DNA from: Rubidibacter lacunae KORDI 51-2
GTDB lineage: Bacteria > Cyanobacteriota > Cyanobacteriia > Cyanobacteriales > Rubidibacteraceae
Length of the DNA stretch: 64,000 nucleotides
Assembly: GCF_000473895.1 (NCBI RefSeq)
Contig: NZ_ASSJ01000049.1
Location: 1 to 64,000 of the forward strand
Direction of reading: 5' to 3'
Every line of letters starts with the position of its first letter. Positions within the stretch are counted from its first letter, which is position 1. Below, piece after piece: positions 3,307 through 41,601 of this stretch. The position numbers and the translations under genes were made by a program. The notes beneath the pieces are model-generated. The model was not told the DNA's origin. It saw nothing but the letters and a program-made list of their open reading frames with translations, and made no database searches.

Positions 3307-3315
3307 CCTTGAAAT

Positions 3316-11464: not shown

Positions 11465-12575
11465 AGAGAAGCCGTTACCCGCCGCAGCGATCCCGCCCAA
11501 ACAGGATCGTCCGACTGACGAACCCCGTGCCGGCATCTTCCTCGGCACGCGCGTCACGGAGCGTCACGACGGCGGCATCCCCATCTACTGGAACCTGGAA
11601 GCGCTCGCTAACGGTCATGTCGCTGCCATTGGTGCCAGCGGTTCGGGCAAGACCCAGACGCTGAAGGCGATCGCCTACGCCCTTCACCAGCAGTACGAGC
11701 AATTGCGCTTGGTGGTGCTGGACTTCCACGGCGACCAACAGCTCCCCGGCGAGCGCGCTTACCAGCTCCACCTCACCAGCGCGTTCGGGGTCAATCCGCT
11801 GGTTATCCACGACGACCCAGAGGGCGGTGGACCCGACCTACAAGCGATCGATGTCGCGCACCAATTGAGCAAAATCCTGCAGATGGGACCGAACCAGCAG
11901 GGCTTGCTGATGGACTCGATTAAGTCGGCGTATTTGGAGCAGGGCATCCTGCAGAGCGATCGCACCACCTGGCAGCGGGAAGCGCCCAACTTCTCCGACC
12001 TCCAGGAAGCGATCGCGAGTTCGGAGCACAAGGGTGCAGACGAGCTGAAGCTGAAGATGGCGGCGTTGTTCATGTACGGCGTGTTCTCGCGCCCGCAGTT
12101 GCCGCTGGGCGATCGCCTGATTCGCGTGGACCTGCACAAGCTGCCGGAGGACGTGGCGGCGCTGGCGGCGGAGACGATCGCGCGCCAGCTCCTGAACCGG
12201 CACCGACTGGACGGGGAAATCGACGGCAAGCTGCCGCGCACCTACCTGGTCGTGGACGAGTGCAAGGTGATGCCGCGCGGGGAGAAGTCGGCGTGTTCGC
12301 GCATCGCGGCAGACGGGCGGAAGTTCGGGCTGGCGATGGTGGTGGCGAGCCAGAGCGAGCGCCACATCAGCGCGGACGTCATCGGCAACTGCGCCACGCA
12401 AATCGTGCTGCCGGTGGCAGCGGTGGAAGCCGGAAAAGTCTCCAAGAAATTCCGAGTCAACGACCGAGCGCTGGCAAAGCTGAAGCCGTTGTGGGCGTTA
12501 GTGCGGTCGGGCACGCAGCTCGACCCGGTGCAAGTGGAACCGTTCTACAAACGAGTGGCGGAGGAAGAAGCATGA
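11454..12575 (+). CDS. HerA/VirB4-like DNA-translocation ATPase
   Basis: The protein has 373 residues. Walker A AIGASGSGKTQTLKAIAY is at about 58-75, LVVLDFHGD follows, and Walker B TYLVVDECKVM lies near 265. A late SQSERHI segment corresponds to the region after motif B in HerA/FtsK/VirB4 enzymes. Members pump DNA or power conjugative secretion. It is shorter than a classical VirB4 or TraD and has no clear membrane anchor, so a HerA-like coupling ATPase is the best name. It overlaps the YdjM-like gene by 11 nt and the lipoprotein gene by 4 nt. Confidence 0.7.
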   Translation: MFAKEKPLPAAAIPPKQDRPTDEPRAGIFLGTRVTERHDGGIPIYWNLEALANGHVAAIGASGSGKTQTLKAIAYALHQQYEQLRLVVLDFHGDQQLPGERAYQLHLTSAFGVNPLVIHDDPEGGGPDLQAIDVAHQLSKILQMGPNQQGLLMDSIKSAYLEQGILQSDRTTWQREAPNFSDLQEAIASSEHKGADELKLKMAALFMYGVFSRPQLPLGDRLIRVDLHKLPEDVAALAAETIARQLLNRHRLDGEIDGKLPRTYLVVDECKVMPRGEKSACSRIAADGRKFGLAMVVASQSERHISADVIGNCATQIVLPVAAVEAGKVSKKFRVNDRALAKLKPLWALVRSGTQLDPVQVEPFYKRVAEEEA

Positions 12576-23685: not shown

Positions 23686-24558
23686 TTAGGTCCTAGGGGC
23701 AGAACGGGCAACGCGGAACCCTTGGTAGTCGAACCCGAAGTCGGGGACGATCCTGGTGCGAAACGCCGAGCGACAGTACCTCGGAGGGGTGAACCAAGAA
23801 CCGCCGCGAGTAACACGTTTACGATTATCTGCAAGTAATTCTGACAGGCTTGATTCTATGATCTCGTAAACACCACTGTCTAGTTTTCCGTCCCAGACAT
23901 GACCGCTTCCGGGGGCCCCTTGGTAATTCTTGTGCCACGGATCTGCGCACCACTCCCAGACATTCCCGTGCATGTCCGAGAGCCCGAAGTTATTGGCTGC
24001 ATCGAAGTAACCGACCGATGTCGTTTCTCCTTGACGCTTACCGACTTCACCTTGTCCATAGACTTTTGTGGCATCGTAGTTAGCCACATCGGACGAGATT
24101 GTTTTTCCGAAGTGAAACGGAGTTGTTGTTCCCGCGCGGCAGGCGTACTCCCACTCTGCCTCGCTCGGCAAGCGATACACTACCCCCATTAATTGAGATA
24201 AGCGCGCGCAAAACTCGATTGCTTCGTACCACTTGACCTTTTCCACCGGGCGATCTTTCCCTTCGAACCCAGACGGATTGGAGTCTAGCTTTACAGCGAT
24301 CTGCGGCACCCTTTCCACTACGAAACGCCACTGCGACTGGGTAACTGGGTAACGCCCGAGCAGAAAGGCTCGCACTTGGACTTCATGCTGCGGTCCTTCA
24401 CCCATACTTCGCCCCGGTTCCTCTTCCGGAGAGCCCATCCAGAACTCTCCGCCAGACACCAGCATCATCTCTAGCCCGAGGCCGTTCGGATCCTCTACAA
24501 AGCGTAGAACCCGCTCCTTGCGGTAGCGAAAATCGAGTTTCGTTTGTGGTGTACCCAT
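23686..24558 (-). CDS. FGE-sulfatase-fold protein with DGR-type variable region
   Basis: The protein has 290 residues. The FGE-sulfatase (C-type-lectin-like) fold fills it from about residue 30: VSGGEFWMGSPEEEPG, RPVEKVKWYEAIEFC, LPSEAEWEYACRAG, DMHGNVWEWCADPWH, and the end RGGSWFTPPRYCRSAF with GFRVARS. This end is the usual variable tip of cyanobacterial DGR targets. It is the last gene of the operon and a close relative of the C-terminus of the preceding 1220-residue protein. The fold is probably used for ligand binding, not formylglycine formation. The variable residues fall in the last 35 positions. Confidence 0.9.
   Translation of the reverse strand: MGTPQTKLDFRYRKERVLRFVEDPNGLGLEMMLVSGGEFWMGSPEEEPGRSMGEGPQHEVQVRAFLLGRYPVTQSQWRFVVERVPQIAVKLDSNPSGFEGKDRPVEKVKWYEAIEFCARLSQLMGVVYRLPSEAEWEYACRAGTTTPFHFGKTISSDVANYDATKVYGQGEVGKRQGETTSVGYFDAANNFGLSDMHGNVWEWCADPWHKNYQGAPGSGHVWDGKLDSGVYEIIESSLSELLADNRKRVTRGGSWFTPPRYCRSAFRTRIVPDFGFDYQGFRVARSAPRT
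23707..23793 (-). other. DGR-like variable region, copy 1
   Basis: These 87 nt (read on the minus strand, from after the TGG codon to GCC of GFRVA) align without gaps with 24737-24823. Of 23 differences, 21 have adenine in one of the two copies, and most lie in codons of the AAY type. Constant blocks such as TGTCGCTCGGC and CAAGGGTTCCGCGTTGCC are identical, although flanking coding sequence has diverged synonymously. Confidence 0.75.
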
Positions 24559-24682
24559 GCCGCAACCTCTAAAGGGGGGGGAGCGCTCAGATTATTCGGC
24601 ATTGCCTACTAAGTTCGCCCGGCCCAGTTGGTTTTCGAATGCACTTGCATCGCCGGAGAGGTCAGGACTCTTCAAGTGCTCC

Positions 24683-27600
24683 CTACGGATTCACTATCCG
24701 CCAGCTCTGACAGCGAAGAGTGCTCCGGGCGGAACGGGCAACGCGGAACCCTTGGCTGACGTAACGGTTGACGGGGATGTCCCAGTTGCGATTTGCCGAG
24801 CGACAGCTCCTCGGATGGTTGTTCCAGCAACCCCCGCGAATAACGCGTGGACGCTCATCTGCGAGTAATTCCGGCAGGCTTGTTTCTAAGTTCTCGTAAA
24901 CTCCGCTGTCGAGTTTTTTATCCCAGATACGACCGCTCTCAGGGGCACCCCGATAATTCTTATGCCACGGGTCGGCGCACCACTCCCAGACATTACCGTG
25001 CATGTCACACAACCCAAAAGCATTTGGAGGAAGCTGCCCGACGTTAATAGTTTGACGAGAATCTTTTGGCTTCCGTTCTGTGGGCTCCTCAGCGTATGTA
25101 AAGTCAGTGTCGTAGGATGCTAAATCCCTCGTCAGCGTCTCGCCATATGCAAACGGTGACGATGTCCCAGCCCGACAGGCATATTCCCATTCTGCCTCGC
25201 TCGGCAACCGGTACTTGCAGCCAGTATGTCGAGAAAGGCGCGCGCAAAACTCGTTAATATCATACCATCTGACATTTTCCACAGGGCGATTGTCCCCCTT
25301 ATAACGTGATGGGTCCGTACCAAGTTCCCAAGCGACCTGTTCGATTCGTGCAACAAATCGCCACTGTGCCTGTGTAATTGGAACCTTGCTTATAAAAAAT
25401 GGCTCGACCCGGACAAGATGCTGGGGTTGCTCGTCGGAACCGCCATCTTCTTCCTCAGGCGAGCCCATAAGAAACTTTCCACCTGGAATCGCTACCATTT
25501 CTAAGCACTCCTCGCCCAGTGGCTCCTCGAAATAGCTTGCCTCAAGGGTCCGCGATCGTGCCACTACCCCACGTCGATCCACCGTCGGCGTCACAAACTC
25601 GAAAACCTTCAGTTCGAAAGATTCGGGCTCCTCCTGCCCCAGCTCTCGGCGTATCTCTCGCGCTCTGCGTCGGAACTCTTCTGAACGTTCGCGTTTTCCC
25701 AGCAATTGGTAACATTGGTCTAGCATCTCTAATGCATCGGCTTCACCACCGCGATCGTCCAGATTTTCATACAGCGCCAAAGCATCCTGCAGCACAGCGA
25801 TCGCCCGCTGTAGGTCTACAAGCTCGTAATAAATGTGTCCCAAGCGAGAGTAATTTAACGCTATGCCAGTGCGGTCGTTAATCTCCTGAGCAATTCCAAT
25901 TGCCTGTTGGCATAACTCAATAGCCCGGTCCCGATTGCCCAATGCAAAGAAACACTCACCCAGCAGACCTAAAGCCTGGCTCTCCTCAAGCCGAATCCTC
26001 TCAGCTTGAAAAATCGCGATTGATTCTTCAAGCAGGTTCCTTGCCTGCTCTATATTCGTCAACTGGACATAAGCGTGTCCCAGACCATGCAATGCATGAG
26101 CTATAAGTGGCCGCAGCCTATCCTCACGAGCAATTTCCAGCGCATGCTCCAGCGTCTTAATTGCTTGAATAGCTTGCTCTTGCACCCCAGTCGCCACAAA
26201 GCAATGACCTAAACCAATCAGAGTCAGCGCCTCTCTGGGCCGATCTTCGATCTCATTGCTGATGGCCAAAGAAGCCCGATAGTTAGCGATCGCTACGTCG
26301 TAATTTCCACGTAAGTATGCGCACTTCGCCAATCCATTCAACGCACTTGCTTCCACGCTCCGCCGACCTGTTTCTCGTGCTGCTAGAAGAGACTCCTCGT
26401 ATAAAGACGCCGCCTTATCAAGTTCCCCGACCTCGACATGGCAAATTCCCAATTCGCCCAGCGAGATCGCCTCTCCCACCCGGTCTCCAAGCTCTCGATG
26501 CAGTTCGACAGCCCAAACTAGGAAGGTCGTCGCCTGCCCCCAATCATAGAGCCGCGCGTAGCACTTTCCTAGAGAACCCAAGGCTTTCGCCCGAACGTCT
26601 GAGGCCGCTATCTGCTCCGAGACCTCCATACAATCGAAGAAGGTCTGAATTGCTCGCTCGACCTCTCCAGAGTCCAAATAGGTATTGCCCAACTCGCCCA
26701 GGGTCAGTGCCTCTGTGTCACGATTGCCCTTGGCTCTCGCCTCAGCAAGTAGCCGTTCGAGTTCTTTAGAGGGGGGTGCGACTTCCTCGATAGCGATCGT
26801 CACCACCCGCACAGAGATCTCCTCCATCCCCCCTCCTCTCCCCAGGTCCCATACTTTTAGGGTGCCGTCGTCCGAGCCTGAAACCGCTAGCCGCCCGTCT
26901 GGGGTCACTGCTACTGTCCTGACTGCAGACTCATGCCCAGAGAAGGTTTGCAGCTCCCTTTCACTCATCAAGTCCCACACTCGCAGGGTGCTGTCCTCCG
27001 ATCCCGAGACCGCTCGCTGCCCGTCTGGGGTCACCGCTACTGCCCTGACTGCAGACTCATGCCCAGAGAGGGTTTGCAACTCCCTTTTACTCCCCAAGTC
27101 CCACACTCGCAGGGTGCTGTCCTCCGATCCCGAGACTGCTCGCTGCCCGTCTGGAGTCACTGCTACTGCCCAAACTCCAGACTCGTGCCCAGAGAGAGTT
27201 TGCAGCTCACTTCCACTCCTCAAGTCCCACACTCGCAGGGTGCTGTCCTCCGATGCCGAGACCGCCCGCTGCCCGTCTAGGGTCACCACCACCGCATTGA
27301 CTGCAGCATCATGCCCAGAGAGGGTTTGCAGCTCACTTCCACTCCTCAAGTCCCACACTCGCAGGGTGCTGTCCTCCGATGCCGAGACCGCCCGCTGCCC
27401 GTCTAAAGTCACCGCTACTGCCCAAACTGAACCCGTATTGTGCTCGATGAGGGTCTGCAGCTCCCGTCCACTCTCCAAGTTCCATATTTTCAGGGTGCAG
27501 TCAAATGAGCCCGAGACGACCCGCTGCCCGTCTGGAGTCACCACCACCGCATTAACTGCAGCATCATGCCCAGTAAGGGTCAGCAACTCTCGTCCGCTCT

Positions 27601-28345
27601 CCAGGTCCCATACTTTCAGAGTTCGGTCGTTTGAGGTCGAGACCACCCGCTGCCCGTCTGGAGTCACCACCACCGCATTGACTGCAGAGTCATGCCCGGA
27701 GAAAGTCCGCAGCAGAGGATCCCTTAAGCGCGGGAGACCGAAGTGCTTCTCTCCGCGCACCTGTCCTACCAACAGCTCCAACCCCGCTGACAGCAACGCA
27801 TCCTCCCGCACGTCCACAAACAGCGCCGCTTGCTCCCGTACTTCTACATCAGGCGATCGCAACGCAGCCTCAACCTGCTGCCGCAACTTTTTAGCACTCT
27901 CCCCCGACCGAATATACCCCAACGCCGTCCAGCGCGGCATCGGTCCAAGCTCCCGCTCTGCACGCCGGTTTTTCGGCAGTTGTGCTGCGATGTAATCTTC
28001 CATGAACTCGGCCAACCGCCAGAGCCTCTCCTCCCCAAAGCGATCGTCCGACAGTAAATGCGCGATCGCCCGTTGACGCACCGCCTCGCTCATCTCGTAG
28101 AGCCCGTCCCCTACCACCTTGCACAGCGGCGACAGCAATAAGTCCGCGATCGCGACCCACGGAGCCTCCCGCACAAAATTCTCTCTCAGGCAATAAGCTA
28201 GCTCCGGCGTTACTGCCAGCGGTAATGCCGTATGCGCAGCCAAGTCCCAGTAGCTGCGCCCGTAGCGCCGCACAAACGCCGTCACCCTCCGCTGCGCCGA
28301 CTTCTCCTCCCACTCCTGTGCCTCTGCCGAAACTGCCATGACCAT
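24683..28345 (-). CDS. WD40-TPR-FGE sensor protein (VMAP-like) with DGR-type variable end
   Basis: The protein has 1220 residues. An N-terminal helical region (1-205) is followed by seven WD40 units (about 210-505; units such as GSEDSTLRVWDL), enough for a full propeller. TPR repeats follow (about 530-900; LGELGNTYLDSGEVERAIQT and similar), then an FGE-sulfatase domain (about 940-1208) with LPSEAEWEYACRAG and GNVWEWCADPWH. The end has RGGCWNNHPRSCRSANRN and GFRVARS, the variable tip. It lies 4 nt after the vWA gene. In VMAP ternary systems the third protein links MoxR and vWA components to a sensor or effector, and this protein fits the sensor role. Binding partners are inferred. Confidence 0.88.
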   Translation of the reverse strand: MVMAVSAEAQEWEEKSAQRRVTAFVRRYGRSYWDLAAHTALPLAVTPELAYCLRENFVREAPWVAIADLLLSPLCKVVGDGLYEMSEAVRQRAIAHLLSDDRFGEERLWRLAEFMEDYIAAQLPKNRRAERELGPMPRWTALGYIRSGESAKKLRQQVEAALRSPDVEVREQAALFVDVREDALLSAGLELLVGQVRGEKHFGLPRLRDPLLRTFSGHDSAVNAVVVTPDGQRVVSTSNDRTLKVWDLESGRELLTLTGHDAAVNAVVVTPDGQRVVSGSFDCTLKIWNLESGRELQTLIEHNTGSVWAVAVTLDGQRAVSASEDSTLRVWDLRSGSELQTLSGHDAAVNAVVVTLDGQRAVSASEDSTLRVWDLRSGSELQTLSGHESGVWAVAVTPDGQRAVSGSEDSTLRVWDLGSKRELQTLSGHESAVRAVAVTPDGQRAVSGSEDSTLRVWDLMSERELQTFSGHESAVRTVAVTPDGRLAVSGSDDGTLKVWDLGRGGGMEEISVRVVTIAIEEVAPPSKELERLLAEARAKGNRDTEALTLGELGNTYLDSGEVERAIQTFFDCMEVSEQIAASDVRAKALGSLGKCYARLYDWGQATTFLVWAVELHRELGDRVGEAISLGELGICHVEVGELDKAASLYEESLLAARETGRRSVEASALNGLAKCAYLRGNYDVAIANYRASLAISNEIEDRPREALTLIGLGHCFVATGVQEQAIQAIKTLEHALEIAREDRLRPLIAHALHGLGHAYVQLTNIEQARNLLEESIAIFQAERIRLEESQALGLLGECFFALGNRDRAIELCQQAIGIAQEINDRTGIALNYSRLGHIYYELVDLQRAIAVLQDALALYENLDDRGGEADALEMLDQCYQLLGKRERSEEFRRRAREIRRELGQEEPESFELKVFEFVTPTVDRRGVVARSRTLEASYFEEPLGEECLEMVAIPGGKFLMGSPEEEDGGSDEQPQHLVRVEPFFISKVPITQAQWRFVARIEQVAWELGTDPSRYKGDNRPVENVRWYDINEFCARLSRHTGCKYRLPSEAEWEYACRAGTSSPFAYGETLTRDLASYDTDFTYAEEPTERKPKDSRQTINVGQLPPNAFGLCDMHGNVWEWCADPWHKNYRGAPESGRIWDKKLDSGVYENLETSLPELLADERPRVIRGGCWNNHPRSCRSANRNWDIPVNRYVSQGFRVARSARSTLRCQSWRIVNP
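24737..24823 (-). other. DGR-like variable region, copy 2
   Basis: This is the partner of 23707-23793. On the minus strand it is rich in intact AAC codons (AAC AAC CAT and AAT CGC AAC), so it may be closer to the unseen template than copy 1. The 3' constant block GGGTTCCGCGTTGCC would be the initiation-of-homing side. Confidence 0.75.
26836..27730 (-). repeat. Tandem WD40-coding repeats
   Basis: There are seven units of 123-129 nt. The central ones are nearly identical at DNA level, for example those encoding SASEDSTLRVWDLRSGSELQ twice in succession. This indicates recent unit duplication or gene conversion inside the sensor gene. Confidence 0.85.
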
Positions 28346-28349
28346 TGCC

Positions 28350-29444
28350 TTACCCCCGCACCCACTCCAGCGCCGCCATCAACCCATCTTCGCTCAGCTC
28401 GAACATCCTCGCGCCCATCACTTCCTCCAGCACCTGCGCGATCGCCTCCGCCGTCGTTCCAGTCCAGCGCCGGCGAGGCATCGGATTCAACCACGCCACT
28501 CCCCACGTCCGCAGGCGCAAGCTCTGCAAAAATGTCCGCGTCGTGTCTACACGCCCTGGACTGTAACCGCCCCGTGCTGCCCCCGCATCGCTCAGCACCA
28601 CCACCACCGAGCACCGCCGACCCAACCGCAGCGCCTCCAACGGCACCTCGTCCGTCCCCTTAGGCTTCTCGTACACCACCTCGCGCGGGCAATTGCGGAA
28701 ATAGTAGAGCCGAACTTGCTCGAACTGCTGCCGCTCCACAGTCTCTACCAACCGGTCCGCCACAGTTCGAAACGGCATCATCGACCCCTCGCGATCCTCC
28801 AAAAACACCAGCTCCAAACGATTCTCCCGCTGTGGCAGATAGGGCAACTCGAAACAGCAGCGCTCTCTCGCCACTGCCTGCACCGCCTTCACAACATCTA
28901 TTTCTTCCGACCTTCCTGCCCTTGCCACCCGCCGCAACTTACGCCACCGATACCGAGCCGGTCGCAACTCGAACGGAAACTCACTCGGCACCAACACGAA
29001 CCCGTGCTGCGATTCCGTCAATCCCAGCGGTGGGTCTGGGAGCCCTCGGTACGCCGCTGCTACTCGCGCCGGAGCTTGCTTCGGAGAAGGGGATGCTCGC
29101 GTTCCGCGTTTAGGAGCCTTCGGCAACGGCCCGATTGGCGGCAAGTCCCCTTTCTCCCCGAACTCACTAGAATCCCTTTTACCTGAGCGAACTGAAGCCC
29201 CCTCCTGCGGCAACCGTGCTAGATATGCTGAAAACTCCCGGTCAAAAAGGGCTCCATCTGCAGGTGTCTTTGCCCACAGTAACCGGCAAACCTCGCGCAG
29301 GTCATCGTAATTCTCCCCTCCTGCACAGCCGAACCCCAACTCCAGCGCCTCCAGCAACGCTACATACTGATCCGGCCGCAACCCTAAAGGCTCGCGCACC
29401 TGTAAAAACAACTCATACAACGGCAGCAGTAAGGAGTCCATCAC
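28350..29444 (-). CDS. vWA-domain protein with SAV_2336-like N-terminus
   Basis: The protein has 364 residues. The first 90 (FLQVREPLGLRPDQYVALLE, VCRLLWAKTPADGALFD) form the helical adaptor that begins SAV_2336-type proteins. A basic, proline-rich linker follows. The vWA domain starts near residue 210 with LELVFLEDREGSMMPF, a modified MIDAS in which the usual DxSxS is DREGS, then VRLYYFRNCP and VVVVLSDAGAARGGY. It overlaps the MoxR gene by 4 nt (ATGA). It is predicted to be the vWA component that couples the MoxR ATPase to the sensor protein. Confidence 0.85.
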   Translation of the reverse strand: MMDSLLLPLYELFLQVREPLGLRPDQYVALLEALELGFGCAGGENYDDLREVCRLLWAKTPADGALFDREFSAYLARLPQEGASVRSGKRDSSEFGEKGDLPPIGPLPKAPKRGTRASPSPKQAPARVAAAYRGLPDPPLGLTESQHGFVLVPSEFPFELRPARYRWRKLRRVARAGRSEEIDVVKAVQAVARERCCFELPYLPQRENRLELVFLEDREGSMMPFRTVADRLVETVERQQFEQVRLYYFRNCPREVVYEKPKGTDEVPLEALRLGRRCSVVVVLSDAGAARGGYSPGRVDTTRTFLQSLRLRTWGVAWLNPMPRRRWTGTTAEAIAQVLEEVMGARMFELSEDGLMAALEWVRG

Positions 29445-30445
29445 GACCCCTCCGCCCGCTCCGGCTGCTTCCAGACGCGCTCCACATCCGCTTTCGTTTT
29501 CAGCAACACTCCAAGCTGCGCCTTATCGCCTAGCAACGCTTCAACTTCTTTGCTCGCGTCCTTCGGAGACTTCCCCGTCAACACCCGCAGCCAATCGAGT
29601 AGCTCGCTCGTTCCCGCCTTCTTTCCAAAGTTTCCCCGGCTTCCCTGCTGCCGAACCTCCAGAAACGTCGCGATTGCCTTATCGAATAACTTGTCGAGCC
29701 GGTGATCCGGAAAATGTAAAAGTGCAATTTGCTTCAGCCGCTCCTCATCAGGAAATGCTAAATAGTAAAAAATACAGCGGCGTAAAAATGCCTCCGGTAG
29801 CTCCTGCTCGCTGTTGCTCGTCACAAACACGATCGGTGGTAGCTTTGCCTTCACAGTCTTCTGTGTCTCTGCGATCGCAAACTGTTGCTCTTCCAGCTCT
29901 GATAATAAATCGTTTGGAAAGTCAATCGACGCCTTGTCAATTTCGTCGATTAGCACCACGGGTCGGTATGTCTCAGTCTCATAAGCTCGACCCAATGCCC
30001 CCATCGCGATATAGCTCATCGGATCTCTCAGATCGGCAACCAGCTCGCTGTATTTATCTTGGCCCAAAACTTCTTTATTTCCCAACAACTGAACGTCTCT
30101 CAGTTTTCCGAGCGCGTCGAACGTGTACCGTCCCTCCTGCGCTACTGTGGTCGACTTGATATTCCACTGAAAAAACGGCCAGTCAGCCCCGTTGCCCGTT
30201 GCCCGCACCCCAAACTCGTAGGCTACTGCCCGCGCCAGCAGCGTCTTCCCGCATCCCGGCTCCCCCTGCAGCAGCAGTGGCCGTTCCAGCGCGATCGCCA
30301 AATTCACTGCCTTTTCCAACCCTGGCTCCGGCGAGTAAGGAAACACCCGCCGCCTGTTCTCCTTTTCCTCGCGTTTCGGCTGAAACTCTTTCTTCCCCGA
30401 ATAACGAGGATAGTTCTTGTCAAATATTTCGTTAAACGCTGCCAT
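29441..30445 (-). CDS. MoxR-family AAA+ ATPase (VMAP-type locus)
   Basis: The protein has 334 residues. Walker A GEPGCGKT is at 61-68 and Walker B VVLIDEID at 163-170. Sensor-1 (IVFVTSNSEQELPEAFLRRC) and a C-terminal helical lid are present. The gene sits 8 nt after the caspase gene and overlaps the vWA gene. MoxR proteins with vWA partners act as chaperone-like switches. Compared with the left-locus ATPase it has a longer basic N-terminus (KKEFQPKREEKENRRR). The family call is firm; the substrate is inferred. Confidence 0.92.
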   Translation of the reverse strand: MAAFNEIFDKNYPRYSGKKEFQPKREEKENRRRVFPYSPEPGLEKAVNLAIALERPLLLQGEPGCGKTLLARAVAYEFGVRATGNGADWPFFQWNIKSTTVAQEGRYTFDALGKLRDVQLLGNKEVLGQDKYSELVADLRDPMSYIAMGALGRAYETETYRPVVLIDEIDKASIDFPNDLLSELEEQQFAIAETQKTVKAKLPPIVFVTSNSEQELPEAFLRRCIFYYLAFPDEERLKQIALLHFPDHRLDKLFDKAIATFLEVRQQGSRGNFGKKAGTSELLDWLRVLTGKSPKDASKEVEALLGDKAQLGVLLKTKADVERVWKQPERAEGS

Positions 30446-30453
30446 AGCCCCTC

Positions 30454-32004
30454 CTAAATAACAAATTTCTCTTCAATAAGTGACCAGTCAAAGCCACAAT
30501 GCTCGCAGATCGTCTCCAGCACGCTCTGAGGTTCCATTGCATCCACACGCCTTGCTAGCTCGTCCCCGAAGTATTGCACCGTCAACTCTTTCTCCAAAAA
30601 AGCCCTCAATGTCTCCTCGCGTTGTTGCACCCACCTCCGCAAGCTTCTTCCGTCGAAGCCTTCTAGCAGAACGGCAGCCACCTGCTCGGGGCGCTCGCGT
30701 TCCCCCATCCTCGTGTGTGGGAGCGGACAACCCTTCCCACGTCCCTCAGCAATCATAAACAGCACCAGCGGGACATGCGAGGTCTCCTCCCCAACCCGAG
30801 CGGCCAGTGGTTTCCAAAGCTGCTCGATAATTTGCAATTGGCAATCCGGTTTCAAACGTTCGACACCTAGCAGCGAGACGGCAACGGCCTTCCCCTTCTT
30901 CCAGTCCGCGAATAGCCTGTCAACAATTGCCCCCGCATTTCCTTCCGTTCCGAGTTGGTCGCCCAGGCGTTGGCAAACCTCAGAAACCGTCCAGGTAGAC
31001 TTAACGTGTAAGGAGGGCTTTTGCGCCGTCGAATCTGAGACCAAGTCCTGCCACAGGCGGTTAACCAACCACCTTTGCCCGCCACCCGCCCGACCGCCAA
31101 TCCAGAAAGCCCCCACCGGCTGGTCGGTACGGAAGAACTTGGCAAAATCTTCACTTTCGCGATCGAAGTTGAGCCTCCGCAGAGCCTCGACAAATCGATG
31201 AAGCTCCCGGCCGCTAATGTCAGGCTCTTTCTCGCGGGAAACTGAGGAGTCCCCAACTCTGCGGACAAGATAAAGCTCCAAACCATTGTGCACCAGCAGC
31301 ACCGGCGTTTGCCCGCTCCCGTAAAGCTTACCGTATACCTGGTCGGCGACAGCAAAAAGCGATAGTCGGCCAAGCTTGTCAAAGTCACCCGATTTCAGAA
31401 CATCGAGCAGTGCCTTAGTAAAAATACCGTGATTGGAAAGCAGGTCGTTAATCGCCATTTCCTTTTCTCGGCAAGCAGCAAAAATTGCATATCCTCGGGT
31501 TGTTCTAAACTCAGGAAAATGATCTGTCAGATGTTCTCCGCCCCACCGCTCCTCTGCTAAAGCTCCAGCATGGCAGCAATCAAAAAGCAATACTAAACTG
31601 CCCATTTTCTTGCGAAAAACAGCTTTTTTCAGGTCATCAAATGTGATGGCCTTGCTGCCATTTCGCTTGCTGTCAGAGGTTGCGAGGTAGCACTGGAAAT
31701 TCCCCCATTCATTACCGACTCGCAGCCCGTGACCGGCAAAGTAGATTAGAACGCTGTCTCCCTCCTTTCGCGCGTTCATGAACTTTCGGATAGCTTTGCC
31801 AAGTTCGTCAAACTCAACCCTTTTTTCTGTATCGACTTCAAATGGTTGTTGAGACTTATGAGGAATTAGCGTGACGGTGAAGTTTTTGCTGTCTCGGAGA
31901 GTCCGTGCCAACTCCTGCGCGTCAGCAGCAGCACTGGGAAGTCCTTGCAGATGGTCGTACGACGAGATTCCAATAATGAGGGCATAACGAGGAGCTTCGT
32001 ACAT
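30454..32004 (-). CDS. Caspase-like (C14) protease with iSTAND-type C-terminal region
   Basis: The protein has 516 residues. The caspase p20-like domain (1-230) has RYALIIGISSYDHLQGLPSA, catalytic His92 in IYFAGHGL and catalytic Cys144 in LLFDCCHAGAL. Both are intact, so it should be active. From about 280 a second domain has FAKFFRTDQPVGAFWIGG and RAGGGQRWLVNRLW, the degenerate P-loop pattern of iSTAND modules, followed by a large helical region. It is first in the operon. In conflict systems such metacaspase-like proteases are effectors that cleave host proteins or kill the cell once activated. The target is unknown. Confidence 0.9.
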   Translation of the reverse strand: MYEAPRYALIIGISSYDHLQGLPSAAADAQELARTLRDSKNFTVTLIPHKSQQPFEVDTEKRVEFDELGKAIRKFMNARKEGDSVLIYFAGHGLRVGNEWGNFQCYLATSDSKRNGSKAITFDDLKKAVFRKKMGSLVLLFDCCHAGALAEERWGGEHLTDHFPEFRTTRGYAIFAACREKEMAINDLLSNHGIFTKALLDVLKSGDFDKLGRLSLFAVADQVYGKLYGSGQTPVLLVHNGLELYLVRRVGDSSVSREKEPDISGRELHRFVEALRRLNFDRESEDFAKFFRTDQPVGAFWIGGRAGGGQRWLVNRLWQDLVSDSTAQKPSLHVKSTWTVSEVCQRLGDQLGTEGNAGAIVDRLFADWKKGKAVAVSLLGVERLKPDCQLQIIEQLWKPLAARVGEETSHVPLVLFMIAEGRGKGCPLPHTRMGERERPEQVAAVLLEGFDGRSLRRWVQQREETLRAFLEKELTVQYFGDELARRVDAMEPQSVLETICEHCGFDWSLIEEKFVI

Positions 32005-32089
32005 GTTGCGTGTCAGAAGAAACCTGGGTGCTGGGCCGCCGCAAGTAAAATATGATATCTTACCCAGCAGCCAGAAACAATTTCTTTAA

Positions 32090-32503
32090 ATGCGTGATTC
32101 CATGACTGATGAGTCAGCGATTAGACGATTTGTCTATACGGACGACCATGGCAATCAATACGAGATCTTTGTTGAAGCACGAGATGTAGGACTACCAGAG
32201 GCTAGCAAAGATTTGCTCGGTGACCAGCACGACGGTCGCGGCGACGACATCCCGGAAGTCAAAATGCAACGGGCAACGGACATGATTCGCGGCTATACCA
32301 CCTATGCAGTCAGTGCATTCAAAGAGTTTAGTGCTGCTCGAGTTGAGGAAATCACCCTCAAGTTCGGGCTCAAAATCGGTGGTAAAGTGGGCATCCCCTA
32401 TATCACCGAAGGCTCTGCCGAAAGCAACTTAGAGATCCAGGTCAAATGTACCTTTCCCGACGCGCATAGTGCCACCGAACCCGAAACAGTTGAAACAAGT
32501 TAG
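32090..32503 (+). CDS. Trypco1 / CU044_2847-family protein
   Basis: The protein has 137 residues; an ATG 12 bases downstream is an alternative start. RFVYTDDHGNQYEIFVEARD is followed by MIRGYTTYAVSAFKEFSAAR, EEITLKFGLKIGGKVGIPYI and SNLEIQVKCTF. This fits the trypsin-co-occurring domain 1 pattern (CU044_2847 family), seen next to caspases and trypsin-like proteases in VMAP-type conflict loci. It diverges from the caspase gene with only 85 bases between, so the two probably share a regulatory region. The acidic tail is not conserved. It may hold or modulate the protease; this is inference. Confidence 0.75.
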   Translation: MRDSMTDESAIRRFVYTDDHGNQYEIFVEARDVGLPEASKDLLGDQHDGRGDDIPEVKMQRATDMIRGYTTYAVSAFKEFSAARVEEITLKFGLKIGGKVGIPYITEGSAESNLEIQVKCTFPDAHSATEPETVETS

Positions 32504-33745: not shown

Positions 33746-34417
33746 TTATTCCTCCATGTTGCGACCCATCCACACCACCTGTCCTAGCACCGCGAAGTCG
33801 ATGCCCTCAGCTGTCAGGTCCACCACATAGGGCGGGTACACCGGGTTATCTGAAATCACCTGCAGCTTCCTTCCCGGCTGCAGCTCCAACCGCTTCACCA
33901 GCAGCAATCCTTCGACCCGGATGACGTAGATGCCCGGCGGCAATGGCTCTGCGACCGTATGCGAAACCAGCATTTGGTCGCCGTGCAGGAGGGTCGGAGT
34001 CATTGAGTCCCCGCGCACGTCAATCAGCGTCACGTCCGACGGAGAGACGTGCAGGTCCTGCCGAAGCCACTCCAGATCGATAGAAACCCACCGCGCCGGG
34101 GGCTCCCAGTCGGCAAACGCCCCCGGACCCGCCGATGCCGAGATGTCGTAGTGGCGGATCGAAATGCTTTTTCCGGGCGGACGGAGTGACCCCTTCCCGG
34201 TCATCAGCCAACCGGGGTCCACATCGTAGACTTCACAGATGCGCGCCGATACCTCGATATCCGGCAAGCGCTCCTCCTGCTCGTAGCGAATCAGCGTGCG
34301 CAGACCGACGCGGATGCTGCGAGCGAACTCCTGCTGAGTCAGTTCGCCGCGAATTTCCTCGATCCGCCGACCGATGCCAGCGCTGAGGGGTGGCTCCTGG
34401 GGCGATGACCTTGACAT
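33746..34417 (-). CDS. CI-like repressor: XRE HTH plus S24 peptidase
   Basis: The protein has 223 residues. The HTH_XRE domain is at about 15-70 (LTQQEFARSIRVGLRTLIRY). A linker carries the Ala96-Gly97 cleavage pair (SASAGPGA). The LexA/CI-type peptidase follows with Ser138 in RGDSMTPTL and Lys175 in LLLVKRLE, so self-cleavage should occur. It is predicted to hold the element silent until RecA filaments trigger cleavage. It diverges from the prim-pol gene, with 179 bases of control region between them. Confidence 0.9.
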   Translation of the reverse strand: MSRSSPQEPPLSAGIGRRIEEIRGELTQQEFARSIRVGLRTLIRYEQEERLPDIEVSARICEVYDVDPGWLMTGKGSLRPPGKSISIRHYDISASAGPGAFADWEPPARWVSIDLEWLRQDLHVSPSDVTLIDVRGDSMTPTLLHGDQMLVSHTVAEPLPPGIYVIRVEGLLLVKRLELQPGRKLQVISDNPVYPPYVVDLTAEGIDFAVLGQVVWMGRNMEE

Positions 34418-34596: not shown

Positions 34597-37041
34597 GTGG
34601 GCGCGCTGGATAATATCTTGCGACAGATGCCGGATGAATTGGCATGGGTTGCAGTTGGAAGGAACAAGGCTCCCTATCTGAAGAATTGGTCGATTCATCC
34701 GCTTTCAAAACAAGAAGTTGTCTCGGAGATTGCGGCGGGAAGGTGTCATGCCATCGGCGTGCTATGCGGCACGCCATCGGGCGGGCTGCTCTTCGTGGAT
34801 GTGGATGGAGCAAGTTGCGATCGCCTGGTGGAGAAACTCTCTGGACTCCCGCTCGCCGAAGCGCTGCCGAAGACGGTCGGGGTCACATCCGGCCGCCCGG
34901 GACGCTGCCAGTTGATTTATCGGGTGACACGGGAGCACTGGGACGCGATCGCCACCCGCAAGCTGAAGGCAGCGGTTCCGGGCGAAGGGTTGGAGCTGCG
35001 CTGGGACGGCTGCCAGTCGGTTGTCACCGGTCACCACCCGCAAACGGACGGCTACCGCTTCCTGCCGGGACAGAGCTTCGAGGAATGCGCGATCGCCCCC
35101 GCCCCTGGCTGGATGCTCCAACAGATGCAGCCGCAGACGTCATTAACGGCATCTTGGCAAGCGTTCGACCGCCAGTTTCGACTCCCCGTAAATGCTGCCG
35201 TCCCGCTGTATTGCTGCCTCAGCCGCGAGAACCGCCACCTCTTCGACGAGGGCGTGCCCCAAGGCTGCCGCGACAACTCCGGTGCCCGCCTCACTCGCGA
35301 CCTGCTCGGCACGGCCGGCTACCTCGCCGGCATCGGACAGATGTTTGAGGGCGACCCGCGCCAGATGCTCGACACGTTCTGCCAGCGCTGCTCGCCCCCG
35401 CTGTCAGAACGCGATGGCGATCGCCTCTGGAAGTCAGCGGTCAAAGACAACCCCGGGCCCAGCCTCTCGCCCGAACAGATCGAGGGCTGCATCAAAGGCT
35501 GGCTCTGGCGGCAGCGTCAAGAGTCGGCAGGCAAACCGCCCGCGATCGCCCCGGACTCCCCCGCCGACTTCCAGTCCACCATGACAGCCGTCGGCAAGAT
35601 CCTTCAAATCCCCAGCCGCGCGCGCCAAACTTGGGAACTCAACCAGCTCGCGCGCCGCCTCCGGCAGCCGCCCGATAGCTTGCGCGCCATGTTCTACGAC
35701 TACCAGCACGAATCCCACGACTTCGCCCCCCGCGACGTCCACGACTTCCTTGCCAGCCGCACCGAAGAGCGCCAATGGCTCGTCGCCGGGTACATCAGCG
35801 CCGCCACCACCATCGTCCTCTACGCCGACGGCGGCACCGGCAAGACCCTCCTCGCTTACGACCTCATCAAGGCGATCGCCTCCGGTCGCCCCTGGAACGG
35901 CTTCCGCACCCAGCAGGTCAAATGCCTCCTCGTCCAAACCGACGAGCCCGAGATCGACACCCGCGAGCGCCTCGACATCGCCGGCTACGCCGAGGAAGTC
36001 AAACGGGGTTGGGTGGCGATCGAGCAGCACTGGCAGTTCTCCCAGATGCATCAACTGCGCCTCTGGATTACCCGCGAGCGCCCCGGCTTCGTCGTCATCG
36101 ACTCCCTCACCAGCGCCAACCGCGCTGCAACAGCCGAAGAGAAAGACACCACCTACGCCAGCAGCCTTTACGACCTCGTCGACCTAGCGAACGATTTCGG
36201 CTGCACCTTCCTAGTGCTGCACCACGAGAACAAGGGCGGTGCCGTACGCGGTACGACAGCGATTCGCAATAACGTTTCCGAAGTCTGGCACCTGCGCCGC
36301 CCCAAACCCGCAGAGGTCAACCAGGGACTTGGACGCAACCATCGCATCCTGGACGTTGAGAAGTCGCGTTCGGGCTGCAGCGGCAACTACACGCTGGAGC
36401 TGAACGTGGAGGACTATTCCTGGAGCTACCAAGGCGAACATTCGGAATCCGTCCGCGACGAGCGTCCGCTCTCAGCGCGGCTGCTCGACTATCTGGAGCT
36501 GCATCATGGCATCCGCTACGAACCTCAGGAGCTGCTGGGGGTGGAAGATCTGGGCGGTGCTACGCGCGACACCATCCGCAAGAGTTTGGAGCGATTGCGC
36601 AAAAAAGGTCTGGTCGAAGCCGAACACCGACTGAAGGACAACGGCAACGGGCAGGGTGGCAAGACCCGCTACAAAGTCTACTTCGTGCCCGACGCGCGTA
36701 TGTCTCCCAGGGCGGTGTCCAGCGAGCCCGAAACGCAGGCAGGGTCTAGCGTCGAGTCGCTGGACGGCTGTAACGGAGCGCAACCCCCCGTCCAGCGAGC
36801 GGAATCCCCCCCAGCAGAGGAAGCGCAGGTCGTTGGACGGCAAAAACGCGTCAACTCAAATTTGCAGGTGGGCGATCGCTGTCGCTACTGCGGGCCCTCG
36901 GGGTCAATAGCAGTGACCTGTCGGGGCAGGGCGCTGGAGGTACTGGCGATCGCCGATGGCAAAGCCCACGTAAAAGCCCCGAAGTGGGCGTATGCCTACG
37001 ACATCCCCCTAGCCCACCTGCGCACAATCAAGCCCGCCTAA
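34597..37041 (+). CDS. Prim-pol / AAA (RepA-like) replication protein
   Basis: A GTG start at 34597 follows GAGGTGG. The protein has 814 residues. The N-terminal 180 form a bifunctional primase-polymerase domain: LAWVAVGRNKAPYLKNWS, GLLFVDVDGA with catalytic acids, and the histidine in SVVTGHHPQTDGYRF. A primase C-terminal-like helical part follows. A RecA/RepA-like helicase domain has Walker A ADGGTGKTLLAY at 410-421, LLVQTDEPEID, and FVVIDSLTSANRA. The C-terminal winged-helix part ends with a small beta domain. It is the replicase of a plasmid-like or phage-satellite element. Confidence 0.88.
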   Translation: MGALDNILRQMPDELAWVAVGRNKAPYLKNWSIHPLSKQEVVSEIAAGRCHAIGVLCGTPSGGLLFVDVDGASCDRLVEKLSGLPLAEALPKTVGVTSGRPGRCQLIYRVTREHWDAIATRKLKAAVPGEGLELRWDGCQSVVTGHHPQTDGYRFLPGQSFEECAIAPAPGWMLQQMQPQTSLTASWQAFDRQFRLPVNAAVPLYCCLSRENRHLFDEGVPQGCRDNSGARLTRDLLGTAGYLAGIGQMFEGDPRQMLDTFCQRCSPPLSERDGDRLWKSAVKDNPGPSLSPEQIEGCIKGWLWRQRQESAGKPPAIAPDSPADFQSTMTAVGKILQIPSRARQTWELNQLARRLRQPPDSLRAMFYDYQHESHDFAPRDVHDFLASRTEERQWLVAGYISAATTIVLYADGGTGKTLLAYDLIKAIASGRPWNGFRTQQVKCLLVQTDEPEIDTRERLDIAGYAEEVKRGWVAIEQHWQFSQMHQLRLWITRERPGFVVIDSLTSANRAATAEEKDTTYASSLYDLVDLANDFGCTFLVLHHENKGGAVRGTTAIRNNVSEVWHLRRPKPAEVNQGLGRNHRILDVEKSRSGCSGNYTLELNVEDYSWSYQGEHSESVRDERPLSARLLDYLELHHGIRYEPQELLGVEDLGGATRDTIRKSLERLRKKGLVEAEHRLKDNGNGQGGKTRYKVYFVPDARMSPRAVSSEPETQAGSSVESLDGCNGAQPPVQRAESPPAEEAQVVGRQKRVNSNLQVGDRCRYCGPSGSIAVTCRGRALEVLAIADGKAHVKAPKWAYAYDIPLAHLRTIKPA

Positions 37042-38382: not shown

Positions 38383-38592
38383 ATGACTGAAAAGCTCTGG
38401 AAATCGACGAGAGAGGCTACTGAGGACCTCGATATCTCCCGTTGGACTCTCGCAAGGATGCGGTCGGATGGGACACTCCAGATTGGCACTCACTATCGGA
38501 TCAAGAGCCGCTCGGGGGCAGCTCGACCGTCTTATCAGTGGAACGTCATAGCAATTACTCGGGTTCTCAACAAGCCGCTGGAGTACCGATAG
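38383..38592 (+). CDS. Excisionase-like HTH protein (69 aa)
   Basis: MTEKLWKSTREATEDLDISR leads to WTLARMRSDGTLQIGTHYRI, a winged-helix pattern of Xis/MerR-like proteins in which WTLARMR is the recognition part. The segment SYQWNVIAITRVL is the wing and last helix. It ends inside the 3' end of the integrase gene (tail-to-tail overlap of 26 nt). Size and place support a recombination directionality factor. Alternatively it is a minor transcription regulator. Confidence 0.65.
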   Translation: MTEKLWKSTREATEDLDISRWTLARMRSDGTLQIGTHYRIKSRSGAARPSYQWNVIAITRVLNKPLEYR

Positions 38593-39709
38593 CTTCAGTT
38601 TCGGCGGGCAACTCTGGAGCCATGGGACGATCTGCTCGTTGCAGTATTAACGAGAAGACCAGTCGTTGATGCCGGTCGTTGTACCAGTGCCCGTAGTGCG
38701 TGTGGTGAATTTGTACTGAATGTCCCATTTGGTAAGCCGCCGAGCCGGTATCAATTCCAAACTTTGCAGCACGTCCAGCCCAAGCATGGCGGAGGTCATA
38801 GGGCTTGAACGGGACGCCAGCCCTTCGAAAATATTGACCGACTGCTCTGCCGATATCCTTCGAGTTATTGGTGGGGAGCTTGACCTCGAAAAGCCCCCAC
38901 TCCTGCCACCATTCTGGATACAGGGGCATCACACCTTCTCTATATCCGGTCTTTCCAGCCAGCACGGAGATAATCCCCGGCTCGTTTTTGATGGCTTCCG
39001 TATCGAAGAGCCAGACTTCGGACGGTCTCAACCCATAGGCTGCAATGATTCCATATACCCAACCCCACTGTGGATTTCGCGTACTGAGTTTGAGAAACCA
39101 CTCCGCAATAGTCCGATCATCGGGTAGGTCACGGGGGTTGATCCGGCGAGTCGACTTCTTACCGCGATACTTGCTCGTATCAAACGGCAGATCGGCAAAC
39201 TTCGCTAGGGCGCCGAGTGCAACACAGAAGCGGTCTCTAAGCCTCGTCCCTGGTTCTGTCGCAAGTACAGCTCTTTCCAAACGGGCAACGGTCAGCTCTT
39301 CATGCGGCGGAAGCTCGCGGAATACTCTCAAATAATCCTTACACCAGGTTTGATGGGTCGTTTCTGTGAGTTGGCGAGTAGAGAAATAGTGCTCTCGAAA
39401 GCACTGCACCAGCTTCTCTGTTTCGGGAATCGTCTCTACCGGTTTGGATTTCCCGTACGACTCCCAGGAGAACGAGCCCAGATCGAGCTGGGCAGAAATC
39501 TCCCGCGCTTTGGCCTCAGCGACCTTTACCCCTGCCGGGTTCGCATGTACGCCAAGGAAAATCCTCTGCTGGTGGGGCTCTTTCCTGTCCGAGCCTGGTT
39601 TAGGCGGCAGAGTCGATCGCAGAAGCAAGCGATTCTTGCGCATCTCGATCCGAACGCCGATGCTCGATGCCTTAAGGCGCCCATTGGCCTGCGCAACTCG
39701 GTCCCTCAT
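38567..39709 (-). CDS. Tyrosine recombinase (integrase)
   Basis: The protein has 380 residues. An Arg/Lys-rich N-terminal arm-binding region is followed by a core-binding helical part. The catalytic domain has IIAAYGLRPSEVWL with the first Arg, then YDLRHAWAGRAAKFG with the His-x-x-Arg pair, QMGHSVQIHHTHYGHWYND with the late His, and the Tyr near the end. All catalytic positions appear intact. The gene begins about 105 bases from the tRNA fragment at 39814, so it is placed to integrate into that site. Confidence 0.92.
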   Translation of the reverse strand: MRDRVAQANGRLKASSIGVRIEMRKNRLLLRSTLPPKPGSDRKEPHQQRIFLGVHANPAGVKVAEAKAREISAQLDLGSFSWESYGKSKPVETIPETEKLVQCFREHYFSTRQLTETTHQTWCKDYLRVFRELPPHEELTVARLERAVLATEPGTRLRDRFCVALGALAKFADLPFDTSKYRGKKSTRRINPRDLPDDRTIAEWFLKLSTRNPQWGWVYGIIAAYGLRPSEVWLFDTEAIKNEPGIISVLAGKTGYREGVMPLYPEWWQEWGLFEVKLPTNNSKDIGRAVGQYFRRAGVPFKPYDLRHAWAGRAAKFGIDTGSAAYQMGHSVQIHHTHYGHWYNDRHQRLVFSLILQRADRPMAPELPAETEAIGTPAAC

Positions 39710-39813
39710 GGTGACAACCGCCTCACCCTCTACTAGTCACCATTCTAGTCACTAAAACGCACATGAACGGAAAAGCTACTGATATATCGCAATCATAGAC
39801 TATGAAGCAGGGA

Positions 39814-39855
39814 CTCATAAGCCTCGTGTCGGGTGTTCAAATCACCCCTGAGCCA
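39814..39855 (+). other. Attachment site: 3' fragment of a tRNA gene with CAU anticodon
   Basis: The fragment starts with the anticodon loop CTCATAA, then GCCTC, a five-base variable loop, the T-arm GGGTG-TTCAAAT-CACCC and the acceptor strand CTGAGCC plus A. The 5' half of the tRNA is absent: upstream bases cannot pair with GCCTC or CTGAGCC. Crossover in the anticodon loop is usual for tyrosine integrases. The anticodon fits tRNA-Met or tRNA-Ile2. It is thus attR, with the intact tRNA expected at the far end. Confidence 0.8.
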
Positions 39856-39866
39856 TCCTCAAAACT

Positions 39867-39905
39867 ACGCCGGAATCTCCCGACACAAATGGGTTCCGGC
39901 GTTTT
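39867..39905 (+). terminator. Terminator after tRNA remnant
   Basis: ACGCCGGAA and TTCCGGCGT form a perfect nine-base stem with an 18-base loop, followed by TTTT. It is probably the original terminator of the tRNA gene and therefore chromosomal. Confidence 0.7.
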
Positions 39906-40305
39906 GGCGTTTGGAACTCGTTTGAGCTGCAGGTGCCATTGAGGCCGGATGGGGTAGGGAAACCCAGTCAAAATTTAGTCCAATGGACAAACTATGCACC
40001 AACCTCACTTGTACGCATGTGCCCTTTACGTACGATCGGCACCAGAGACTGACGCACAACAGGCAGAGCTTGCTAACTCGACCCAGCACAGTAAACTAGT
40101 TCATATGTACCATTAACTTTAGAGGCTGTTTGAAAAGGGTCCAGCTGAGTATCAGACTACCTTGAGCTACCCCTAGAAAGGCCTTGAAAGTTCTGTTCCC
40201 TCGTCGTGAGTCATGTGCCTATTTTCGCGAAACTCTACTTTTCAAATAACCTCTTAAGTTGACAATTCCCTACGGTGCAGTCATCTCAGAAGTTTTTTCA
40301 TTCAA
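39906..40305. other. Chromosomal gap containing a MITE
   Basis: Apart from the MITE annotated at 40122-40253, no gene or RNA is seen in this stretch. Confidence 0.5.
40122..40253. mobile_element. 132-bp MITE with terminal inverted repeats
   Basis: The ends GAGGCTGTTTGAAAAG and (inverted) GAGGTTATTTGAAAAG match at 14 of 16 positions. TTA flanks both sides (40119-40121 and 40254-40256), a 3-bp target duplication. The interior has no ORF, so it needs a transposase in trans. Confidence 0.7.
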
Positions 40306-41535
40306 TTAGACATCATTTGTCAGTTTCAGCCACCTGGCTGAGGAAGTCAAGGTCAAACCCTGAACGGATACTGAAATCAAAACGATAAAGAAGACCAAAT
40401 TAAAAATGACTCTAGAATCGTCCAAGCCCGCAGAGATGGGAGCGATCGCCAAGATAATCGGTACGGCTCCCCGCAGCCCTACCCAAGACACGAAGGTTTT
40501 TTCTTGCCAGCTATACCTTGCCAACGCCAAGCCAATAAATACACTCAATGGACGTGCTATAAACATCAGAAACAAGGCGATCGCTATGGCAACTGGTGCG
40601 ACCCCTAGTAGTTGTGAGGGGAACACTAAAAGCCCTAGAACTAAAAACATGCTGATTTGCATTATCCAGGCATTCCCTTCCATAAAACTAGCAATCTCCT
40701 CCTTGAAGGGATATCGTTGGTTGCCAAGGACTACACCTGCCACGTAAATTGCTAGAAAGCCATTGCCTTGTAGCAAAGTAGCAATTCCATAAATTAATAA
40801 AACGCGCCCTACAGTTAGAACGGGGTACAGTTCTTTTGTGTCGAAGGAAAAGCGATTGGTCGTCCAACTCATCAGAAGTCCGATGCCATAACCCACAAGT
40901 GTTGCCACACCCAGTCGTAAGAGTAATGTCACCATTATCGTCATCAGTCCGGTAGAGGAAGGGTCTGAGGCGGCCAAGACTTTTACTAACGTATCCGTAA
41001 GTAAAACTGCCATTGGATCGTTACTGCCAGATTCAAGTTCTAGTAATGGTTTAAGGTGACCCTTAAGACCCGATCTGTCTGACTTGAGAATTGAAAAGAC
41101 GGCGGCAGCATCAGTTGAAGAAACGATCGCGCCCAATAGTAACCCTTCTAACCAACTAATTCCATCTAGCCCAAAATCAAACGAAGAGAACGATCCCAAA
41201 ACGGCCCAAGCAAATGTCCCCAGTATGAGTGTGGTGAGTGCAACGCCAAGTGTTGAGAGAACCAACCCTACGCCCAAAACTGGCTGAATGGTACGCCATT
41301 GTGTTTCCATCCCGCCATTAAACAAGATGAACATCAGCGCAATATCGCCGATTGTTTTGGCTAACTGGTAGTTGTCGAAGTAAATTCCCCCAATTCCTTC
41401 AGAGCCTGCCAGCATCCCAATTAGCAGGAATATAAGCAGTCCAGGAACCCCAAACCTAGTTGATAGCTTGCTGGCAGCAACACTCAAAATCAGTAGCAAG
41501 CCAGCAGCAAAGCAGAATAACTCCAGGGATGGCAT
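40306..41535 (-). CDS. Potassium/proton (CPA-type) antiporter, NhaP2/CvrA-like
   Basis: The chosen start at 41535 (MPSLELFCFAAGLLL) gives 409 residues; the frame is open to 41601. About twelve membrane helices are evident. Family motifs include GVPGLLIFLLIGMLAGSEG, the ion-site region GAIVSSTDAAAVFSIL, LLELESGSNDPMAVLL and WVGLRGAVPIILA. E. coli CvrA and similar proteins carry a cytoplasmic RCK domain that is absent here, so this is a short form. Its job should be K+ or Na+ export driven by protons. It faces away from the K+ channel gene. Confidence 0.88.
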   Translation of the reverse strand: MPSLELFCFAAGLLLILSVAASKLSTRFGVPGLLIFLLIGMLAGSEGIGGIYFDNYQLAKTIGDIALMFILFNGGMETQWRTIQPVLGVGLVLSTLGVALTTLILGTFAWAVLGSFSSFDFGLDGISWLEGLLLGAIVSSTDAAAVFSILKSDRSGLKGHLKPLLELESGSNDPMAVLLTDTLVKVLAASDPSSTGLMTIMVTLLLRLGVATLVGYGIGLLMSWTTNRFSFDTKELYPVLTVGRVLLIYGIATLLQGNGFLAIYVAGVVLGNQRYPFKEEIASFMEGNAWIMQISMFLVLGLLVFPSQLLGVAPVAIAIALFLMFIARPLSVFIGLALARYSWQEKTFVSWVGLRGAVPIILAIAPISAGLDDSRVIFNLVFFIVLISVSVQGLTLTSSARWLKLTNDV

Positions 41536-41601
41536 GGGTGTCAACTCTATTGAAACAGTATTACTTTCCAAAGAACTACTGCAAGGGCACAGGATTGTCA
41601 A

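Follow-up and report, generated by a model that had tools for sequence, protein, structure and literature searches.

A probable right attachment junction of an integrative element at an elongator tRNA-Met gene of Rubidibacter lacunae, and the unusual polarity of its integrase

The tycheposons of Prochlorococcus combine a tRNA-targeting tyrosine recombinase with replication genes in cyanobacteria, and the locus examined for the current report is like them in both respects, by a comparison that goes by description only. In the excerpted text of the Islander study (PMC4383910), crossover in the anticodon loop accounts for 2083 of 3919 islands, and as described there such islands share with our locus an intact tRNA gene and a displaced 3' fragment of it, a tyrosine integrase and a crossover in the anticodon loop. 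Islands are defined there by having both tRNA pieces on the same replicon and a length of 2-200 kb; here the two pieces are present and their orientation fits, but they lie on different, unjoined contigs. The integrase is located inside the element, with its start 101 bp from the core, and the right junction most likely belongs to this known kind of tRNA island.

A displaced tRNA 3' half is a well-known scar of insertion, and what is unusual at this locus is the polarity of the integrase beside it. According to the available extract of the survey of integrase-tRNA pairs (PMC2951348), the arrangements termed SIT and OD together make up under 8% of 1273 pairs, and negative autoregulation is predicted for integrases whose promoter overlaps the att region. 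In the KplE1-type modules of that extract attL overlaps the integrase promoter, and the integrase of our locus likewise starts beside arm sites, an analogy by which this integrase might be negatively autoregulated from its own arm. Integrases of the STI modules in the same extract face the intact tRNA gene, whereas the integrase studied here faces the displaced fragment. The pair is adjacent and divergent, as in the OD shape, but its partner is a fragment and the pairings of PMC2951348, as excerpted, were made with tRNA genes.

The window referred to below is the whole stretch of DNA that was analysed, 64,000 bases long, and it represents the beginning of a contig (C49) of 238,979 bp in a draft pyrosequencing assembly of 4,153,658 bp, 99 contigs and 41 tRNAs. 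We read positions 39732-39905 as the attR of an integrative element in an elongator tRNA-Met gene whose left junction is on another contig (C74, 64,686 bp), and we put the probability of this reading at roughly 0.7. The features that bear on it, in the order of their coordinates in the window, are the following.

33746-34417, minus strand: CI-like repressor with HTH and S24 parts (Pfam PF00717, 1.2e-15; PHROG repressor, 3.7e-42).
34597-37041, plus strand: Prim-Pol and AAA_25 primase-helicase (Pfam PF09250, 6e-16, and PF13481, 6.5e-33; PHROG DNA polymerase/primase, 4.1e-17).
38383-38592, plus strand: putative excisionase of 69 aa, convergent with and overlapping the integrase, so named from its position and from homologues near related integrases.
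38567-39709, minus strand: tyrosine integrase of 380 aa, an intact ORF (PHROG integrase match, weak Pfam match, family-conserved residues).
39732-39752, plus strand: TAGTCAC-N5-TAGTCAC, the putative direct repeat of the right arm (P'), located 78 bp to the left of the core and just upstream of the integrase start.
39810-39855, plus strand: displaced 3' half of a tRNA-Met, most likely the elongator (attR core and rest of the gene), in an exact block shared with C74.
39867-39902, plus strand: terminator-like hairpin with a short T run, common to C74.
39965-39982, plus strand: second arm-like repeat (CAGTCA..TTTAGTCCA), right of the fragment and 110 bp after the tRNA 3' end.

The tRNA 3' half is cut in the anticodon stem-loop, and it belongs to an exact block of 53 nt (39810-39862) that is shared with the tRNA-Met gene on C74 (C74:882-955) and the bases after that gene. 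A 44-nt pattern, searched with up to three mismatches, occurs at just two places in the 4.15-Mb genome, both of them exact, and its reversed control occurs at none; the fragment is real, far beyond chance. No tRNA is called in the window by ARAGORN, nor by Rfam at gathering scores, and the piece at 39810-39855 is therefore a fragment. The first-pass annotation had proposed a displaced tRNA 3' end that served as the target of an integrative element, and had foreseen as an objection that no tRNA gene of the genome might share the sequence; the 53-nt match to a single intact gene elsewhere in the genome, the tRNA-Met on C74, bears the proposal out. It was right in substance about the junction, with two corrections: identity begins 4 nt 5' of the anticodon loop (GGGA) instead of exactly at the loop, and the shared exact stretch is 53 nt long instead of 42. 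Between the two identities that it had offered for the parent tRNA, Met is retained, most likely as the elongator type, and Ile2 was dropped on the basis of the three CAT tRNAs in the genome. This rejection leans on the assignment of the other two CAT tRNAs, which from their features we take to resemble the initiator and the Ile2 type.

Homology to C74 goes on beyond the exact block: from 39857 to 39905 the window and C74 agree at 46 of 49 bases, and from 39906 to 39955 they agree, without gaps, at 36 of 50 (blastn of 39806-39955 against C74 gives 91%). The first part of this stretch holds the hairpin, previously described as a tRNA-style terminator, and of that description the fold is upheld (12 pairs, -18.6 kcal/mol, with 6 of 200 shuffles folding equally well), but the run of Ts is only four long and a simple terminator scan does not report the hairpin. 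In a draft pyrosequencing assembly of 99 contigs, one might also see in the fragment a decayed tRNA gene or an assembly error that has an integrase nearby by chance. We regard such an origin as most improbable in view of the 53 exact bases, the homology that runs into the hairpin and beyond, and a cut in the anticodon stem-loop that is common to nearly all fragments of the family.

The intact tRNA-Met gene on C74, whose existence with an identical 3' part had been predicted, points toward the near end of its contig with 881 bp remaining, as is expected of a left junction. A left copy is invisible in the window because the window starts at the first base of its contig; its absence, from which an element longer than 39.8 kb or a stack of elements had been deduced, is a limit of the assembly and no evidence of element length. 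The near end of C74 falls in an open frame that from its translation we take to be an IS21-like istB, and similar stretches are found on contigs C90, C39, C89 and C79. The assembly offers no physical link between C74 and C49, and joining them through repeats failed, with the first 600 bases of the window matching themselves only. Seven elements in which both ends were found span about 7-19.5 kb by coordinate arithmetic, well under the more than 39.8 kb that is needed here, and the region must therefore be composite or rearranged. A search of 40 genomes (39 relatives and R. lacunae itself) with the C74 flank and the antiporter of the right flank found no empty site; the flank matches in these genomes, a set that held no other member of the genus, sit at places without tRNA-Met linkage.

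The main reason for taking the two junctions as the ends of one element is the match between their arm repeats and the placing of these repeats. Only two places in the R. lacunae genome, C49:39734-39751 and C74:755-772, carry the motif TAGTCA-N6-TAGTCA exactly. When one mismatch is allowed, it occurs at 10 places versus 9 for the reversed control, that is, without enrichment, and the argument consequently rests on where the two exact sites are placed. The repeat on C74 begins 108 bp past the tRNA end, where relatives with the integrase downstream of the tRNA in the same direction (class A, written [tRNA>][int>]) carry their integrase-side repeat, and the repeat in the window begins 78 bp before the core, where relatives carry the distal repeat. 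The two agree at 16 of 21 bases, which is equalled in 0 of 566 control windows; read in reverse, the window repeat still agrees at 14 of 21, which leaves the orientation of this repeat weakly settled.

A direct repeat of period 11-12 adjoins the integrase start in relatives as well as in the window. Scores of 8 or 9 out of 9 for this start-site repeat are reached in the window and in 27 of 43 class-A loci (a duplicate dropped), and scores of at least 8 in none of seven [int>][core>] loci, none of three [tRNA>][<int] loci, 4 of 17 loci in which no tRNA was found and, by chance, 75 of 2316 random control windows. Paired direct repeats of this period are present on both arms at the R. lacunae junctions. 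The two arms agree in five of the seven relatives compared (17-20 of 21 bases, 65-80 bp before the distal core), and the feature is therefore not universal by this measure. The control windows as good in those five comparisons (3 of 281, 2 of 284, 1 of 284, 2 of 284 and 2 of 186) may include the proximal repeat copy itself. In the other two genomes, G135 and G148, the arms match at 13 of 21 bases only, no better than the background, and 22 and 12 of 284 control windows, respectively, are as good.

The circular plasmid NZ_CP016485.1 of Picosynechococcus PCC 8807 (L168; 13,153 bp) carries a whole attP, in the order repeat, 46 nt of tRNA-Met 3' half, hairpin-like sequence (recognized by eye), repeat and integrase. 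This plasmid looks like the circular form of such an element. A second record, the Microcystis plasmid NZ_CP046059.1 (L169), has an integrase relative with no tRNA piece detected near it; these are the two that were looked at among three integrase matches in plasmid records. A literature search, with most subscription journals outside it, found no publication on this arm-repeat integrase family.

The integrase itself matches Pfam Phage_integrase weakly (E 5e-4, below the curated cut-off) and the PHROG integrase family at E 1.4e-9; it has no match in NCBIfam, and none was found in phage records. Residues R228, K253, R307, H330 and Y339, which we take to be those of tyrosine recombinases, are conserved in its family. 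The 69-aa protein has no match in Pfam, PHROGs or NCBIfam. Its homologues, with 35-45% identity, occur in the elements of six other genomes no farther than about 5 kb from related integrases, and it is probably an excision factor, to judge from its position. A simple scan reports neither a promoter nor a terminator.

Two groups of genes left of this module, one at 23686-32503 (AAA, VWA, iSTAND-caspase, WD40/TPR, FGE-sulfatase and Trypco1 domains) and one at 2284-4919 (AAA and iSTAND domains), resemble conflict or defence systems. In the left part of the window there is also a HerA/TrwB-like gene (11454-12575), with matches in 3 of 20 genomes, its own included, which therefore looks accessory. 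Contig C89 of G000, 8.8 kb long, has near its end another integrase of this family (L066; 7471-8591, minus strand), which is interrupted by three in-frame stops and has repeat-like sequence before its start.

Of the 388 genomes sampled from the order, 146, that of R. lacunae included, have a match to the window's integrase at E 1e-12 or better. The 72 loci examined comprised 30 that came straight from this search (that of the window included), one from a scan of genome contigs and 41 taken from the matches of the same search roughly by rank; the survey passed over several near-copies and short pieces, and tRNAs were detected with a library of 93 sequences. A tRNA gene or fragment is nearby in 54 of the 71 other integrase relatives, and the targets include tRNAs for Met, Phe, Cys, Glu, His, Thr, Arg, Tyr, Val, Lys and Leu. 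The fragments begin at tRNA positions 26-32 (short matches inside intact genes not counted), with the exception of a 27-nt Thr match in L107 that begins at position 46. Apparent tandem arrays, with tRNA-Phe fragments about 18-20 kb apart and repeated integrases, are seen in G371 and G379 (L116, L117, L118 and L119).

Class A, the usual state of the family, accounts for 44 of the 72 loci, 35 beside an intact gene and nine beside a 3' fragment, and two of its loci, L063 and L136, are one record. Ten other loci depart from the usual state in two other ways, three as [tRNA>][<int] and seven as [int>][core>]; the latter include L127, whose tRNA match is weak (87% over 39 nt), and L041 and L055, in which the tRNA piece is more than 1 kb from the integrase. 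No tRNA was found at 17 loci, and the window alone has the arrangement [<int][core>] among the 55 loci with a tRNA piece.

The nature of this departure can be seen from the gene order. After the helicase part of the primase, G015 and G068 have a small putative excisionase, the convergent integrase and the tRNA, and the integrase meets the 3' side of the tRNA; in the window the primase is followed by the small protein, the convergent integrase and then the 5' side of the fragment, which reads away. The integrases of most relatives with a tRNA start at the left arm and read away from the rebuilt tRNA, and in the window the integrase has its start at the right arm and runs away from the fragment. 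The order of the module is kept, but the tRNA piece is reversed, so that relative to the arms the interior is inverted. An integrase module inverted in this way, the only case in 55 loci with a tRNA piece, is one of two new points here, the other being the decayed arm-like repeat to the right of the fragment. The first-pass annotation had not remarked on the unusual side of the core that the integrase occupies.

The integrase of the window is a lone deep branch in trees, a position that would be the same for a single inversion and for a trait of its lineage. A refinement that is compatible with our best explanation is that this integrase natively uses a reversed attP, a right-arm integrase being the state of a whole lineage. 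The lone deep branch with its intact open frame is in keeping with the refinement, as are the divergent integrase-tRNA pairs that exist elsewhere (in the extract of PMC2951348). Against it is the lack of a second member of such polarity in 72 loci, as a result of which a lineage-wide state would look like one inversion, and we hold the refinement to be possible, if on the unlikely side. We find it doubtful that the family can invert its interior relative to fixed attachment arms, with the window as a captured case.

The second arm-like repeat, to the right of the fragment, differs in sequence from the first and is placed as repeats are at left junctions (110 bp from the tRNA end, versus 108 bp on C74), which suggests that it is the decayed remnant of an element that occupied this site earlier. 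Outer repeats similar to it can be read by eye, unscored, in G015, G160 and G379. A search of C49 39850-70000 with 30 family proteins found no decayed integrase right of the fragment (nothing below E 0.03). The stacked elements that had been suggested as one way to explain the window thus gain an arm-like repeat, but no third copy of the core is found in the assembly. The G+C content is 0.47-0.52 over 40-48 kb versus 0.56 genome-wide, and of 39 other genomes searched, only two have close relatives (58-67%) of the antiporter at 40306-41601.

The second repeat would also suit a history in which the junctions on C74 and in the window are those of two elements at the same site, a tandem array having later lost pieces. 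A deletion or rearrangement would then have put the integrase beside the fragment, and its odd orientation would be a scar and not a design. Nine class-A rows (eight distinct records) have a tRNA 3' fragment followed by an integrase, repeated copies are carried by G371 and G379, C74 ends in a repeat that is present on other contigs, and the lowered G+C is as such a history would have it. On the other side, the arms of C74 and the window are the only exact TAGTCA-N6-TAGTCA pair of the genome, the window arm is at the distance seen in relatives, and the integrase, the putative excisionase and the primase are open frames in the same order as in relatives. Two elements are therefore to our minds unlikely, though a serious contender to the reading of one element with its attR in the window and its left junction on C74.

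Part of the same inversion reading, and held with the same doubt, is a relationship between this integrase family and the recombinases at interrupted nitrogen-fixation genes. Among the integrase matches listed, relatives at 34-36% identity have a PF00148 (Oxidored_nitro) match no more than about 1.1 kb away in 5 of 10 genomes searched (G064, G386, G114, G269 and G281), and none of the matches listed for the ten genomes is near a PF00374 match. Four of the five loci beside nitrogenase-family genes (L170-L174) are closely similar to each other and carry a repeat (7 of 9) directly next to the start codon, and the fifth is without it. A score of at least 7 is also reached by 298 of the 2316 control windows and by three of seven other long recombinases, and the start-site repeat of the nif-gene group is a weak point of resemblance. 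With midpoint rooting, the five nif-side recombinases form a clade that joins seven other long recombinases, apart from the tRNA users. The recombinases at interrupted nitrogen-fixation genes of heterocyst formers, of XisA/XisC type, target protein genes, unlike the tRNA users of the family described here.

The origin of the heterocyst interruption elements is unclear according to the excerpted account of them (PMC4874684). In that excerpt, the 23 xis genes aligned with the interrupted gene sit near the beginning of the element, and all but one of 70 xis genes in the opposite orientation are nearer its end. This placing of xis by orientation, so far as the excerpt describes it, resembles the two polarities that are seen in the family here.

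If one element did span both contigs, as we think probable, a crossover in the anticodon loop of the elongator tRNA-Met would have integrated it. Its attP would have supplied a further tRNA 3' half together with the terminator; this copy would have restored the host tRNA gene at the left junction, the one now on C74, and the original 3' half would have been displaced to the right end of the element. The integrase, if active, would have the paired direct repeats of the two arms as its binding sites and the anticodon stem-loop as the core; the S24 protein might act as the switch and the Prim-Pol/AAA protein as the replicase of the circular form. An older element, to which the arm-like repeat outside the fragment may have belonged, would once have occupied the same site.

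What appears worth following at this locus is the reversed module, together with the possible stacked relic. One end of a mobile island would be fixed by our reading in a marine cyanobacterium, together with testable rules for attachment sites, namely an anticodon-loop core and paired arm repeats at set distances. An inversion, if true, would move the integrase promoter from the side of the rebuilt tRNA to that of the displaced fragment and thereby change its control by the arms. Should the link to the nitrogen-fixation genes hold as well, the origin of the excision elements of heterocysts might become testable by comparing the attachment sites and the recombinases of both groups.
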